Source of the DNA: Streptomyces sp. 7-21
GTDB lineage: Bacteria; Actinomycetota; Actinomycetes; Streptomycetales; Streptomycetaceae
Length of the DNA: 64,000 nt
Reading direction: 5' to 3'
Assembly (NCBI RefSeq): GCF_016741785.1
Contig: NZ_JAERRL010000005.1
Span: 310,001 to 374,000, forward strand
Positions 58,271 through 62,386 of this stretch are shown here, one piece after another. The position numbers were made by a program, and so were the translations under genes. Under the pieces are notes generated by a model. The model was not told where the DNA came from. It worked only from the letters and a program-made list of their open reading frames with translations, and ran no database searches. How positions within the stretch are numbered: position 1 is the stretch's first letter; each line of letters opens with the position of its first letter.

Positions 58271-59704
58271 ATGCGCCGAGCCAAAATCGTCTGCACACTT
58301 GGGCCTGCCACGGACTCATATGAGCGCATCGCGGCGCTCGTTGAAGCCGGAATGGACGTCGCCCGACTCAACCTGAGCCACGGCGACCACCGCGAACACG
58401 AACTCCGCCTCCAGCGCGTCCGCCGCGCCGCCACCGAAAAAGGCCGCAGCGTCGGAATTCTCGCGGACCTCCAGGGACCCAAGATCCGGCTCGGCACCTT
58501 CCTCGAAGGCCCCGTACTCCTCGAACCCGGCGACGAATTCACCATCACCACCGAAGACGTCCCCGGCAACCAGCACATCTGCGGCACCACCTACAGCGGC
58601 CTCGCCGCCGACGTCACCCCCGGCGAACGCGTCCTCATCGACGACGGCCGCGTCGCCCTCCAGGTCACCGCCGTCGACGGCCCCCGCGTCCACACCCGCG
58701 TCACCGAAGGCGGCCTCGTTTCCGACCACAAAGGCATCAACCTCCCCGGCGCCGCCGTCTCCGTCCCCGCCCTCTCCGCCAAAGACGTCCAGGACCTCCG
58801 CTGGGCCCTCCGCGCAGGCGCCGACATCATCGCCCTCTCCTTCGTCCGCAACGGCGACGACATCAAGGACGTCCACCGCGTCATGGCCGAAGAAGGACGA
58901 TTCCTCCCCGTCATCGCCAAAATCGAAAAACCCCAAGCAGAACAGAACCTCCAGGACATCATCGACGCCTTCGACGGCATCATGGTCGCCCGCGGCGACC
59001 TCGGCGTCGAAATCCCCCTCGAACGCGTCCCCCTCCTCCAGAAGCGCGCCATCGCCCTCGCCAAACGCAACGCCAAACCCGTCATCGTCGCCACCCAGAT
59101 GCTCGACTCGATGATCGAGTCCTCCCGCCCCACCCGCGCCGAAGCCTCCGACGTCGCCAACGCCATCATGGACGGCACCGACGCCGTCATGCTCTCCGGC
59201 GAAACCAGCGTCGGCCGCTACCCCATCGACACGGTGCGCACCATGAGCCGCATCGTCGCCGCCGCCGAAGACGACCTCCTCTCCCACGGCCTCACCCCCC
59301 TCGCCGACAGCCACAAGCCCCGCACCCAGGGCGGCGCCGTCGCCCGAGCCGCCGCCGAGATCGGCGACTTCCTCCAGGCCACCCTCCTCGTCGCCTTCAC
59401 CCAGAGCGGCGACACCGCCCGCCGCCTCGCCCGCTACCGCTCACCCATCCCCGTCATCGCCTTCACCCCCGACCCCGCCACCCACGCCCAGCTCACCCTC
59501 ACCTGGGGCGTCGAAACCCACCTCGTCCCCACCGTGCAGACCACCGACGACATGGTCGCGCAGATGGATGAGCAGCTCCTCCGCCTCGGCCGCTGCCGCC
59601 GCGGCGACACCGTCGTCATGACGGCCGGATCGCCGCCCGCCACCCCTGGCACCACCAACCTCGTCCGCGTCCACCACGTCGGCGAGGACGACGCCCCCCG
59701 CTGA
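58271..59704 (+). CDS. pyk: Pyruvate kinase
   Basis: Converts phosphoenolpyruvate and ADP to pyruvate and ATP at the end of glycolysis. The 477-residue chain starts MRRAKIVCTLGPAT and shows NLSHGDH, the catalytic-lysine region IAKIEKPQAEQN, MVARGDLGVE, and ATQMLDSMI. The C-terminal allosteric domain is present (GDTVVMTAGSPPATPGTTN). The ATG at 58271 is preceded by an 87-bp lower-GC gap. A hairpin follows the gene. Confidence 0.96.
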   Translation: MRRAKIVCTLGPATDSYERIAALVEAGMDVARLNLSHGDHREHELRLQRVRRAATEKGRSVGILADLQGPKIRLGTFLEGPVLLEPGDEFTITTEDVPGNQHICGTTYSGLAADVTPGERVLIDDGRVALQVTAVDGPRVHTRVTEGGLVSDHKGINLPGAAVSVPALSAKDVQDLRWALRAGADIIALSFVRNGDDIKDVHRVMAEEGRFLPVIAKIEKPQAEQNLQDIIDAFDGIMVARGDLGVEIPLERVPLLQKRAIALAKRNAKPVIVATQMLDSMIESSRPTRAEASDVANAIMDGTDAVMLSGETSVGRYPIDTVRTMSRIVAAAEDDLLSHGLTPLADSHKPRTQGGAVARAAAEIGDFLQATLLVAFTQSGDTARRLARYRSPIPVIAFTPDPATHAQLTLTWGVETHLVPTVQTTDDMVAQMDEQLLRLGRCRRGDTVVMTAGSPPATPGTTNLVRVHHVGEDDAPR

Positions 59705-59726
59705 GCCCACACAGGTGCCACGTCTG

Positions 59727-59763
59727 AAGGGTCCCGCCGCCGCCACCGGCGCCGGGACCCCTT
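59727..59763 (+). terminator. Hairpin after pyk
   Basis: GGGTCCCG (59729-59736) pairs with CGGGACCC (59753-59760), with possible AAG/CTT extension, about 25 bp after the pyk stop. Confidence 0.75.
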
Positions 59764-59805
59764 GTCACGTCCACCACCACCGTGATTGGCTCGTCTCACC
59801 CGCAG

Positions 59806-59819
59806 CGAAAGCGCTTACC
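59806..59819. promoter_or_regulatory. Operator-like CGAAAGCGCTTACC (shared with 18525)
   Basis: Exact reverse complement of the 14 bases at 18525-18538, with the self-complementary core AAGCGCTT. It lies 107 bp upstream of the cupin gene start. It resembles LacI-family operators. Confidence 0.55.
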
Positions 59820-59874
59820 GAAGACAGCGCGGCGCCCCGGCAACGTCCCACCGGGCACCCGAGGAGACCGCCAC

Positions 59875-59904
59875 GTGACCGCCGGCCAGCTCCTCACCTG
59901 GTAA
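59875..59904 (+). CDS. 9-codon leader-like micro-ORF before the cupin gene
   Basis: GTG at 59875, preceded at good spacing by GAGGAG (59861-59866), encodes VTAGQLLTW and stops with TAA at 59904, 21 bp before the cupin ATG. A second ribosome-binding site (AGAAGGA) serves the cupin gene. It may couple or modulate translation; chance cannot be excluded. Confidence 0.35.
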   Translation: MTAGQLLTW

Positions 59905-59925
59905 GGAACAGAAGGACAGCAGCCC

Positions 59926-60660
59926 ATGACCCTGGAAAACCCCCTCCCCGGCGCCATCGGCCTGAGCCACATCACCCCCTACGACTGGACCGCCACCGAC
60001 GGCGTCCGGGGCGGCAGCCCTCACATGCACACCGCCTGCACCGAGGCCTACGTCGTCACCGCCGGAAAGGGAGCCGTCCAGACCCTCAGCCCGCAGGGCT
60101 ACCACCACACCCCCCTCGAACCCGGCACCATCGCCTGGTTCAGCCCCGGCACCGTCCACCGCATGATCAACGAGGACGGGCTCAAGGTCACCGTCCTCAT
60201 GCAGAACAGCGGCCTCCCCGAAGCAGGCGACGCCGTCTTCACCTTCCCCGCCGAGATCCTCGCCGACCCCGAGCGCTACGCCGAAGCCGCCGCCCTCCCC
60301 GCCAAGGAAGGCCCCGAAGCCGAGAAGGCCGCCCGCGCCCGCCGGGACCTCGCCATCGAGGGCTACCTGCCCATCCGTGACGCCCTCCGCGACGGCGACC
60401 CCGAACCGCTGCGCGCCTTCCACGCCGCCGCCGCCCGTCTCGTCTCCGGCCGCGTCGCCGCCTGGCGCGCCCGCTGGCGCGACGGGGCGCTCGCCGCCGC
60501 CGAACGGACCGGCGCACACCTCGACGCTCTGGAGAAGGGCGACCCCACCCACCTGTGGCAGGCCGCTATGAACACCACCGGCCCGACCCGCGCCGCTGGC
60601 TGCGGCATGTGCGGCCACCGCCAGGAGTACGAGGTCCCCGGCGTCACGCTCCCGGCCTGA
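59926..60660 (+). CDS. Cupin domain protein
   Basis: A 244-residue protein with one cupin barrel (about 20-100). Metal-site motif 1 appears as GGSPHMHTACTEAYVVTAGKG (His27 and His29 with Glu33) and motif 2 as PGTIAWFSPGTVHRMIN (His near 77). A helical C-terminal part ends in CGMCGHRQEYE, with two closely spaced Cys. The upstream LacI-like site suggests sugar-related control; enzymatic activity (isomerase or similar) is unknown. Confidence 0.78.
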   Translation: MTLENPLPGAIGLSHITPYDWTATDGVRGGSPHMHTACTEAYVVTAGKGAVQTLSPQGYHHTPLEPGTIAWFSPGTVHRMINEDGLKVTVLMQNSGLPEAGDAVFTFPAEILADPERYAEAAALPAKEGPEAEKAARARRDLAIEGYLPIRDALRDGDPEPLRAFHAAAARLVSGRVAAWRARWRDGALAAAERTGAHLDALEKGDPTHLWQAAMNTTGPTRAAGCGMCGHRQEYEVPGVTLPA

Positions 60661-60666
60661 CGCGGG

Positions 60667-61446
60667 TCAGTACTTGGGCCCCACGTGCGCGTCCATCAGC
60701 GCCACGGACGCCTTGCGGGCGATCGAGACGTTGAACGGAGCGCCGTTGCGTTCCAGGATTCTCCACTCGGCCCCTACCAGGTCGAGAGCATAGGTAAAGA
60801 GCCCTCGGATGTCGTCAGAGCGGTTACTGAAGAAGTACCGAGCGTATTCGTACCGTTTCCTCTCGCCCGCGACTGACTTGGTCGTCCAGTTGGTGACGCG
60901 GCAGCCGTCGGAGTGGATGCAGCCCCGGATGAATGCCCAGGCGTATCGATCCACGAGCGCGTGCTGCCAGGGCTCCAGCGCGATATGGCGGTCGTGCTTC
61001 CTCCCTGCACCGTGCTGAGGGAAGAGGCATGTCCAGTGGTGTGTGAACGACTTCACTTCCGTGCAGCCCTTCAGCTGACGGTGCCGGATCCGCGGCGTGA
61101 CCATCACGGCCCTCATGGCGTCTTCGGCTGCCGTGATCAGACCGGGCCAGAGGTCGTCACAGAAGATCGAGAGATGATGCTGACCAGGACGGGAAACGAT
61201 GTGGCCGTCCCCTAGATACAACCCGAGGAGGTAGACGTAGGCGCGCTCGTCGAAATCACGGGGTGTGCAGCGTGGGCAGTCGTGCGGTCGCTGGAAGGGC
61301 ACACCGAGGGACCGGCGTTCTTCAGAGCGCCACCAGGAGATCGTGCCAGGCGGGACCCGGAGTCGCTCGGCGACCGAGGCTACCGTGGCACCGCCTCTCA
61401 GCAGTGTGAGCGCTTCCGTACGGATGGCGGGGGGATAGGACTTCAC
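60667..61446 (-). CDS. HTH protein with LAGLIDADG homing-endonuclease-like core
   Basis: A 259-residue protein. Residues 1-45 form a transposase-like helix-turn-helix (RTEALTLLRGGATVASVAERL, VPPGTISWWR). A CPRC pair (Cys57, Cys60) follows. Two LAGLIDADG-like helices are visible: YLLGLYLGDG (72-81) and FIRGCIHSDG (172-181), each ending in the acidic residue needed for cleavage. It is free-standing, not in an intron or intein, and lies 74 bp from tRNA-Leu. GC and codon use are lower and more varied than in its neighbours, hinting at acquisition. It might be a regulator rather than a nuclease. Confidence 0.75.
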   Translation of the reverse strand: MKSYPPAIRTEALTLLRGGATVASVAERLRVPPGTISWWRSEERRSLGVPFQRPHDCPRCTPRDFDERAYVYLLGLYLGDGHIVSRPGQHHLSIFCDDLWPGLITAAEDAMRAVMVTPRIRHRQLKGCTEVKSFTHHWTCLFPQHGAGRKHDRHIALEPWQHALVDRYAWAFIRGCIHSDGCRVTNWTTKSVAGERKRYEYARYFFSNRSDDIRGLFTYALDLVGAEWRILERNGAPFNVSIARKASVALMDAHVGPKY

Positions 61447-61519
61447 ACGCGCACAGTCGCAGACGGGCCAGTGCCGAGGGGAAGAGAAGGAAGAACATCA
61501 CTCGGCTGAGTGACCCTTG

Positions 61520-61603
61520 TGCCGGGTGCGGGATTCGAACCCGCATGCCCTATCGGGCGGAGGTGTTTGAGACCTCTGTGTATCCCGGTTCCACCAACCC
61601 GGC
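61520..61603 (-). tRNA. tRNA-Leu (anticodon CAA)
   Basis: An 84-nt class II tRNA on the minus strand. Acceptor stem GCCGGGT/ACCCGGC, anticodon stem GAGGT/ACCTC with loop CTCAAAC giving anticodon CAA (reads UUG), a long variable arm GCCCGATAGGGC, and T-arm GCGGGTTCGAATCCCGC. Discriminator A; CCA is not encoded (CAA follows). It is the only tRNA recognised in the window. Confidence 0.95.
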
Positions 61604-61696
61604 ATGTTCATCGCCACAGAAGTCTATCCGTTCCTGGCAGCCGCAAGCCACTAGGTACCCTCGTCAGTGGCCACCTTGTACGAACCGAGGAGCAGC

Positions 61697-62386
61697 GTGA
61701 GCACCCCCGACGTTCCGGATGAGAACCCCACTCCCGCCGAAGCCGCCTCTGCTGCGGAGGGGAGCGACGCGCACGTGCCGCCGCAGACGACGCGTGTCGT
61801 GATCGCCGAGGACGAGGCCCTGATCCGGATGGATCTCAAAGAGATGCTGGAGGAGGAGGGCTACTCCGTCGTCGGTGAGGCGTCGGATGGCGAGCGTGCC
61901 GTGGAGCTGGCCCGGGAGCTGCGGCCGGACCTGGTGATCCTGGACGTGAAGATGCCGGTGATGGACGGGATCTCGGCGGCGGAGAAGATCGCTGCCGAGG
62001 CGATCGCGCCGGTGCTGATGCTGACGGCGTTCTCGCAGCGGGAGCTGGTGGAGCGGGCCAGGGACGCGGGTGCGATGGCGTACCTGGTGAAGCCGTTCAG
62101 CAAGAGTGACGTGGTTCCGGCCATCGAGATCGCGGTGTCGCGGTTCCATGAGCTGAAGGCGTTGAGCGGCGAGGTGGCGGACCTGACGCAGCGGCTGGAG
62201 ACGCGGAAGCTGGTGGACCGGGCGAAGAGCGTGCTGCAGACGCAGTACGGGCTGACGGAGCCGGCGGCGTTCCGGTGGATCCAGAAGACGTCGATGGACC
62301 GCCGGCTGTCGATGCGGCAGGTGGCGGAGGCCGTGCTCCAGGACGCGGCTGAAAAGGCGCAGAAACAGCAGAAGTCCCAGAAGTAA
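61697..62386 (+). CDS. ANTAR domain response regulator (PdtaR-like)
   Basis: A 229-residue response regulator whose output binds RNA. After an acidic Ala-rich N-terminus, the receiver domain has VVIAEDEALIRM, phospho-acceptor Asp83 (VILDVKM) and Lys132 (LVKPFSK). The ANTAR domain spans about 160-215 (LVDRAKSVLQTQYGLTEPAAFRWIQ, then SMRQVAEAVL). Such proteins act by antitermination. The GTG at 61697, with GAGGAG six bases upstream, was chosen over a GTG at 61667. Third positions favour G, unlike the genes just to the left. Confidence 0.92.
   Translation: MSTPDVPDENPTPAEAASAAEGSDAHVPPQTTRVVIAEDEALIRMDLKEMLEEEGYSVVGEASDGERAVELARELRPDLVILDVKMPVMDGISAAEKIAAEAIAPVLMLTAFSQRELVERARDAGAMAYLVKPFSKSDVVPAIEIAVSRFHELKALSGEVADLTQRLETRKLVDRAKSVLQTQYGLTEPAAFRWIQKTSMDRRLSMRQVAEAVLQDAAEKAQKQQKSQK

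Follow-up and report, generated by a model that had tools for sequence, protein, structure and literature searches.

The window, that is, the whole stretch of 64,000 nucleotides of Streptomyces sp. 7-21 analysed here, contains an open reading frame (60667-61446) encoding a protein for which we use the working name HTE. The gene lies directly 3′ of a tRNA-Leu(CAA) gene, in the order pvdA-like, pyk, cupin-like, HTE, tRNA-Leu, pdtaR and livJ-like. We take 58271..59704 to be a pyk-like gene (pyruvate kinase), 59926..60660 a cupin-like gene and 61667..62386 a pdtaR-like gene for an ANTAR-type response regulator, and the outer neighbours are presumably pvdA-like and livJ-like. The parts of the locus are as follows.

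60667..61446, minus strand: HTE gene, 259-aa protein with a helix-turn-helix (HTH) and two LAGLIDADG motifs; GTG start (AlphaFold2 model, PDB fold matches)
61309..61434, minus strand: N-terminal helix-turn-helix, aa 5-46 (HTH_Tnp_1 at aa 2-49; modelled helices 6-17, 22-29 and 33-46)
61267..61278, minus strand: CPRC pair, aa 57-60 (conservation in homologues)
61201..61233, minus strand: LAGLIDADG motif 1, aa 72-82, with acid D80 (conservation of D80)
60901..60933, minus strand: LAGLIDADG motif 2, aa 172-182, with acid D180 (conservation of D180)
61042..61446, minus strand: N-terminal half of HTE, aa 1-135, co-exchanged with tRNA class (trees, distance tests, class-associated residues, boundaries at other loci)
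60670..61014, minus strand: C-terminal half of HTE, aa 145-259, tending to follow the flanking chromosome (trees, distance tests, locus pairs)
61519..61603, minus strand: tRNA-Leu(CAA), class II allele, hypervariable partner of HTE (ARAGORN, Rfam, allele survey)
61447..61518, minus strand: 72-bp spacer from the tRNA 3′ end to HTE (minimum-free-energy fold against shuffles)
61604..61653, minus strand: approximately 50 bp 5′ of tRNA-Leu(CAA), presumed start of the exchanged block by analogy with other loci
61667..62386, plus strand: pdtaR-like flanking gene, chromosomal marker (beside the tRNA in relatives)
58271..59704, plus strand: pyk-like flanking gene, second chromosomal marker
59926..60660, plus strand: cupin-like gene between pyk and HTE, outside the element (also in L188)

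The host genome (4.8 Mb assembly, 58 contigs) holds one HTE copy. Several features named in the original prediction were confirmed at the locus. The position beside tRNA-Leu(CAA) is as described, the HTE start codon being 72 bp from the tRNA gene, which gives an Rfam tRNA match of 51.4 bits when searched alone. The original prediction saw no intron or intein with the gene; since tRNA is the sole Rfam match within 59600-62000 (E≤0.1) no known intron family is present there, and no intein family of Pfam was matched by the window protein or 70 homologues. The differing codon use is real but modest, with a GC3 of 0.785 against 0.82-0.94 in five neighbouring genes. No terminator is claimed in the spacer because its minimum-free-energy fold is no better than that of shuffled sequences (z 0.38). 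Both the window and L188 (genome G284) have a cupin-like gene separating pyk from HTE, and the window cupin protein had no match at that position in the other loci checked.

The two LAGLIDADG helices with acidic ends, the transposase-like HTH and the CPRC pair that had been read from the letters of HTE were all borne out. In Pfam, HTH_Tnp_1 was found in the window HTE at E 2.5e-4 and LAGLIDADG_3 weakly at E 0.034, both below the family cut-offs. At E≤1e-3, LAGLIDADG_3 was matched by 42 and HTH_23 by 40 of 70 aligned homologues, and HTH and LAGLIDADG families were the sole matches of the homologues. The motifs read LLGLYLGDG (D80) and FIRGCIHSDG (D180). D80 is kept in 186/186 homologues and D180 in all 185 with a residue there, the remaining one of the 186 having a gap. 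Of 104 intact homologues, 102 have C57 and 101 have C60 (176/186 and 156/186, respectively, in a wider set); metal binding by this pair, which stands alone, is putative.

The AlphaFold2 model (pLDDT 90.9, 70-row alignment) consists of three N-terminal helices followed by two LAGLIDADG-type domains in one chain, and the HTH precedes the LAGLIDADG part in Pfam and model alike. The closest PDB fold by Foldseek was I-Tsp061I (1.0e-8). VIA-align, in which rows within Z 1 count as tied, gave the TliVMA intein (Z 16.3), I-DmoI (Z 15.8, 160-164 residues, rmsd 2.9-3.1) and WhiA (Z 15.8, 174 residues, 8% identity). The window HTE had no match in NCBIfam, two weak matches of unknown function in PHROGs and 0 matching families in PADLOC; with 70 members at E≤0.01, the PADLOC models named 'homing endonuclease' gave 8 and 2 matches and mads_1 gave 4. 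A sequence search of the PDB gave nothing for the single protein and weak matches alone for the profile.

Relatives of HTE were confirmed 198 times in one genome collection, and the median dN/dS over 117 pairs of similar homologues was 0.11 for the N-half and 0.17 for the C-half; the open reading frame is therefore more than a chance one. Taken together, fold, invariant acids and dN/dS indicate that HTE is a selected protein with an intact-looking, predicted endonuclease active site. Purifying selection of this strength (dN/dS about 0.11-0.17) would also fit a host function. Within a pair, the N-half had often diverged more at synonymous sites than the C-half (e.g. 0.77 versus 0.35), as older or exchanged N-half alleles would give, and some pairs showed the opposite.

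The distribution of HTE is broad and patchy, and its linkage to tRNA-Leu is nearly complete. All 80 named relatives listed from the genome collection are Streptomyces, and in a survey of the class at E≤1e-15 HTE was found in 85 of 394 genomes and 25 of 137 genera. A tRNA-Leu gene adjoins 179 of the 180 survey loci, mostly CAA and co-directional, with a divergent CAA gene in one family and a divergent UAG gene in another. Among 110 loci, 80 from the genome collection and the rest from the window's relatives, HTE or fragments of it lay 3′ of tRNA-Leu(CAA) on the same strand in 109 and divergent from tRNA-Leu(UAG) in one, with a median distance of 93 bp from the tRNA to the matched part of HTE. 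From the 85 HTE-positive survey genomes 70 were examined, 30 of the same genus (window included) and 40 of other genera. The same-genus loci were all beside tRNA-Leu(CAA) (30/30), and 39 of the 40 other-genus loci had an adjacent tRNA-Leu, the 40th ending at a contig edge. These 39 comprised 31 CAA co-directional, five CAA divergent (all in family f21) and three UAG divergent (in family f6). Of 60 genomes of genus g8, 19 carry HTE; in 18 it is divergent from tRNA-Leu(UAG), and in the 19th a contig end cuts the locus. With three arrangements at two isoacceptors, inherited gene order does not suffice to explain why HTE keeps to tRNA-Leu genes.

The comparison of relatives with and without the gene, proposed together with the original prediction, gave 17 intact, nine damaged or incomplete and 11 undetected copies in 37 same-genus genomes, the locus itself being outside the examination in one of the 11. 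Occupied and empty alleles exist at the same locus in relatives (e.g. L091 and L130), and tandem HTE pairs occur in four loci (L008, L083, L211 and L213). Empty, decayed and tandem states are accordingly all represented. The window HTE had no match among phages or among plasmids, and none of 12 pattern matches in IMG/VR was confirmed, so that HTE behaves as a chromosomal element. As a lead, the suggestion that the element is mobile or domesticated and may cut the tRNA locus is upheld by acids that are invariant in a gene that is patchy and decaying. Unconserved acids together with vertical presence in all relatives had been named as the pattern of a regulator; the acids are conserved and the gene is missing from part of the relatives.

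Regulation nevertheless has to be considered. A domesticated HTE could bind the tRNA-Leu/pdtaR region and control expression in the manner of WhiA, co-evolving with its binding site, and the N-terminal HTH, the WhiA fold match at Z 15.8, the strong purifying selection and the co-variation of the N-half with tRNA class described below are all in its favour. We regard this as quite unlikely, since both acids are invariant in HTE while WhiA is degenerate and without nuclease activity in the passages of PMC10714963 that treat it, HTE is absent or damaged in 20/37 same-genus genomes, and regulation leaves unexplained both the exchange of whole tRNAs between class I and class II and the mirror case at UAG.

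The tRNA next to HTE is hypervariable. Within a genus, tRNA genes normally rank among the least variable sequences. At 142 pdtaR-tRNA-pyk loci, a set that counts some genomes twice, the CAA tRNA was of class II with a long variable arm (83-88 nt) in 64 and class I-like with a short variable loop (74-79 nt) in 78, and both classes hold several very different sequences. Rfam recognised a tRNA at gathering level in seven of nine loci tried, in both classes, and missed L001 and L025. The minimum-energy fold of the class I tRNA of L130 is no cloverleaf, yet it is a tRNA by ARAGORN and Rfam. In 36 same-genus genomes there were 29 distinct tRNA-Leu(CAA) sequences with a median pairwise identity of 0.67, and none of 35 same-genus copies had at least 0.95 identity to that of the window. 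Changes in the tRNA gene of relatives, which the original prediction suggested looking for, are thus present on a large scale, the whole tRNA being exchanged.

The control isoacceptors in the window's genus were CAG and GAG. tRNA-Leu(CAG) was 99-100% identical in 30 of 37 genomes (query's genome included) and 86-87% in five, with a best match of 84% in two; CAG identities are from BLAST and CAA identities are global with gaps counted, a difference far exceeded by the contrast. tRNA-Leu(GAG) was identical in 8/8 copies from four genomes, apart from the extent of the encoded 3′ CCA. The five copies at 86-87% (G005, G012, G019, G023 and G029) represent a second tRNA-Leu(CAG) allele, and the four of them that were read are nearly identical to each other. 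A CAA search pattern with a gap of 15-45 misses class I tRNAs, and one with a gap of 10-15 also matches other tRNAs. The statement of one CAA tRNA per genome holds among the matches listed and in the PMC4932002 table for six Streptomyces genomes.

The variability goes with the isoacceptor to which HTE is linked, CAA in the window's genus and UAG in g8. In g8 the linked UAG tRNA had a match of 74-100% to the query copy in 58 of 60 genomes, and reached at least 95% in only two of the 58, one being the query itself; the unlinked CAA tRNA had at least 95% identity in 55 of 57. In genus g3, one identical CAA tRNA was common to 5/5 HTE-free genomes examined, one further HTE-free genome being outside the comparison, and 4/4 HTE-bearing genomes had four other CAA tRNAs, including two of class II. 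In the window's genus, genomes without HTE also varied (seven class I, three class II), as did the UAG tRNAs of HTE-free g8 genomes. Because of these varied tRNAs, past presence and loss of HTE must be assumed. Small HTE remnants in three of 20 HTE-negative g8 tRNA loci inspected, which were those most like the query tRNA, make past presence plausible; for the remaining HTE-free loci it is an assumption.

Eight g8 genomes (G468, G209, G461, G482, G493, G473, G463 and G458) contain pieces of the 3′ part of tRNA-Leu(CAA), 25-50 nt long and 96-100% identical, on the contig of the intact gene and 5-17 kb away from it. They resemble the attachment-site duplications of integrated elements.

Such fragments, and the varied tRNAs of HTE-free genomes, would be expected if the tRNA-Leu locus were hypervariable for another reason, for instance because it evades phage or defence nucleases or is a hot spot of integration, with HTE merely persisting there as a hitch-hiker. 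We consider this improbable. In g8 it is the CAA tRNA, the one with fragments, that is conserved, while the HTE-linked UAG tRNA varies; the diversity seen in g3 is confined to HTE-bearing genomes; the promoter side and the whole tRNA change, beyond the 3′ end; and tRNA class follows the N-half of HTE specifically.

This last relation emerged from trees, distances and locus pairs. On the pyk+pdtaR tree of 77 loci, tRNA class required 22 changes, hardly fewer than with shuffled labels (mean 24.2, minimum 18), and on the HTE tree of 76 loci 10 changes (shuffled minimum 18). When HTE was split in the 76-locus set, the N-half required 10 changes, the C-half 19 and the flanks 21, with a shuffled minimum of 16 for each; finer tRNA types gave a weaker contrast (27, 35 and 35, respectively). 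A second set of 81 loci, at least three of which stand for genomes of the first set, gave 15 changes for the N-half, 29 for the C-half and 28 for pdtaR, which was thus not associated with tRNA class. For the 44 loci of this set from within the genus the counts were 5, 14 and 14, and within-genus shuffles were as low in 0/300, 226/300 and 225/300 cases, respectively. tRNA class thus follows the N-half of HTE, unlike the C-half or the flanking genes. Class-associated residues concentrate at aa 1-60, the HTH and what follows, and at aa 76-135, the first LAGLIDADG beta-sheet, and fall off after approximately aa 140.

The exchange has sharp boundaries. Distance correlation with the flanks falls between −140..−50 and −45..−1 of the tRNA and returns in pyk; the segment 50-140 bp 5′ of the tRNA, pdtaR and pyk intercorrelate (rho 0.40-0.54), whereas this correlation is absent for the tRNA and the 45 bp immediately preceding it. 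L009 and L033 are homologous at 94.7% up to −52 and again at 94.8% from +528/+509, inside HTE, and these near-identical chromosomes differ in carrying class I and class II tRNA, respectively. A similar block is exchanged in L022/L074, L015/L050 and L049/L079. L205 and L236 share 98.2% up to −68 and 95.5% from +430/+126, with class II and class I tRNA, respectively, and L236 retains the HTE C-half only. Between L091 (occupied, class II) and L130 (empty, class I), homology is lost approximately 53-65 bp 5′ of the tRNA and resumes 117 bp 3′ of the empty-site tRNA. In the compared pairs the exchanged block starts 41-68 bp 5′ of the tRNA. There are exceptions: the HTEs of L091 and L093 are closely related (90% DNA identity across the region) and their tRNA classes differ, and at several class-associated positions the window HTE, whose adjoining tRNA is class II, carries residues of the class I type. 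Within class II, N-half and tRNA distances are uncorrelated (rho −0.02, 76-locus set). In no locus pair did the cassette show greater similarity than the flanking DNA, and a very recent transfer between distant species was therefore not among the events detected.

In Streptomyces class I alleles (e.g. L009, L022 and L015) the near-palindromes CCTTCGTTTCGAAGG and CCTTCGATTCCAAGG lie just 5′ and just 3′ of the short tRNA, respectively, and could be a leader/trailer pairing or a protein-binding site. The left exchange boundary in the same genus falls just past a conserved GAGCCTACCTAG that may belong to the divergent promoter of pdtaR. Likely −10 boxes, identified by eye, are at different distances from the tRNA in class I and class II alleles.

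Two general causes of the exchange were rejected. Integration of a prophage or other element at the tRNA is not the main cause because the change extends over the promoter side and the entire tRNA, and most loci retain the order pdtaR-tRNA-pyk. Generic recombination was rejected because the correlation breaks near the tRNA, with −140..−50 and pdtaR following the chromosome and the tRNA and its last 45 bp not doing so, and because pdtaR is unassociated with tRNA class.

Co-inheritance and hypervariability of the same kind would also arise if HTE attacked tRNA-Leu transcripts rather than the gene, the linked divergent tRNA serving as a resistant antidote, in which case tRNA and N-half must travel together. 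Such a toxin-antidote pair at the RNA level appears unlikely to us: in both its fold and the placement of its acids HTE matches LAGLIDADG enzymes that cut DNA, exchange in the compared pairs sets in 41-68 bp 5′ of the tRNA, beyond the tRNA itself, and no known defence or toxin family matched HTE well.

In the reading that we prefer, HTE is probably a homing element of bacteria: it would cut alleles of tRNA-Leu and put a resistant tRNA of its own in their place. HTE would be a free-standing LAGLIDADG homing endonuclease with its target at the adjoining tRNA-Leu gene. When HTE-bearing DNA meets a chromosome with a different tRNA-Leu allele, the enzyme would cut at or near that tRNA, and repair of the break from the HTE-bearing copy would bring in the element's own tRNA-Leu and the HTE gene. 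Alternatively, repair could join the element's tRNA-Leu and N-terminal specificity half in frame to the resident C-half. The element's tRNA is proposed to escape cutting because its sequence has diverged. If the cell needs this tRNA, survivors would be chromosomes with the resistant tRNA, constituting a natural cleave-and-replace drive, and later decay of the nuclease gene would make the locus available to another cassette. Donor and recipient could perhaps meet through conjugal chromosome transfer between hyphae. The fold, the invariant acids, the tRNA-Leu linkage, the hypervariability of the linked isoacceptor, the sharply bounded joint exchange of tRNA and N-half and the empty, decayed and tandem states are observed; that DNA is cut, that the tRNA gene is the target, that the linked tRNA resists cutting and is needed, how donor and recipient meet and the drive are what we infer. 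In its widest form, our hypothesis is that a chromosomal gene drive cutting a leucine tRNA gene and carrying a resistant tRNA (a natural cleave-and-rescue system) has repeatedly forced class I/II switching of a single-copy tRNA across actinobacteria, by means of a swappable N-terminal specificity module matched to the tRNA allele; we lean slightly towards this being correct.

Several observations count against homing. The LAGLIDADG fold is shared by the non-catalytic regulator WhiA; L091/L093 and the window HTE are exceptions, and varied tRNAs occur in HTE-free genomes; the correlation within class II is −0.02 and no cassette is more alike than its flanks; and copies in phages or plasmids were not found.

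The original prediction is extended in three respects: the tRNA is the exchanged, hypervariable part, the N-half of HTE moves along with it, and there are three tRNA-Leu arrangements. One tRNA-Leu exists in 29 versions in 36 genomes of the window's genus and flips class, whereas CAG and GAG are nearly constant there. Should this variability be driven by the nuclease, HTE would be a bacterial selfish element that attacks a needed gene while supplying a resistant copy. The persistence of homing elements in bacterial chromosomes, and the tolerance of leucyl-tRNA recognition for loss of the long variable arm, now become testable. Among the matches listed from the open-licence PMC literature, no description of the element or of tRNA-Leu(CAA) class I/II switching was recognised, and a search of PMC9569102 and PMC12772374 by term showed nothing on either.

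Among known systems, I-DmoI and I-Tsp061I share with HTE (residues 57-259) the two-domain LAGLIDADG fold at 13-18% sequence identity in structural alignments; both are intron-encoded by their entry titles, whereas HTE has no intron and an added HTH. In its model HTE shows the two domains and the terminal acids of two-motif (monomeric) LAGLIDADG endonucleases, and cleavage is predicted. WhiA/DUF199 (PDB 8dy9, 3hyi) likewise combines a LAGLIDADG fold with an HTH in actinobacteria, but its N-terminal domain is degenerate, its HTH C-terminal and nuclease activity lacking, in the relevant passages of PMC10714963, while HTE has invariant acids, an N-terminal HTH and a patchy distribution.

SegB of T4-like phages is also a free-standing homing endonuclease beside tRNA genes and promotes inheritance of the tRNA region, but is of the GIY-YIG type, phage-borne and associated with various isotypes, according to excerpts of PMC2988022 and PMC13096335; HTE is LAGLIDADG in Pfam and fold, chromosomal and tied to tRNA-Leu, with no phage copies found. 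Horizontally acquired tRNA clusters with HNH homing genes and a tRNA-Leu(TAG) with a short variable loop are reported in PMC6582537.

The closest parallel is offered by the WHO elements of Torulaspora and Lachancea yeasts, as presented in extracts of PMC7282813. There, sensitive FBA1 alleles are cut by a LAGLIDADG enzyme whose gene lies downstream of FBA1, a resistant 3′ end takes the place of the old one at every homing event, and FBA1 evolves fast with a discordant phylogeny. In both systems the LAGLIDADG gene is directly downstream of a fast-evolving, phylogenetically discordant partner, the unit comprises the enzyme gene and the upstream partner region, and tandem and decayed copies occur; the allele-specific relation is proven for WHO and proposed for HTE. 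They differ in that WHO is intein-derived with a zinc finger while HTE has an N-terminal HTH and no intein or zinc-finger match. WHO also leaves duplicated FBA1 fragments, whereas no tRNA fragment was found downstream of HTE (T-arm motif in 0/142 loci, one 15-nt match at E 0.01), and the hosts of HTE are bacteria in which the whole tRNA is replaced. As in homing elements, occupied and empty alleles are present at the HTE locus and the partner is replaced together with the element, except in L091/L093 and the window. In its proposed action HTE is thus most like the yeast WHO elements, yet it is no member of that family.
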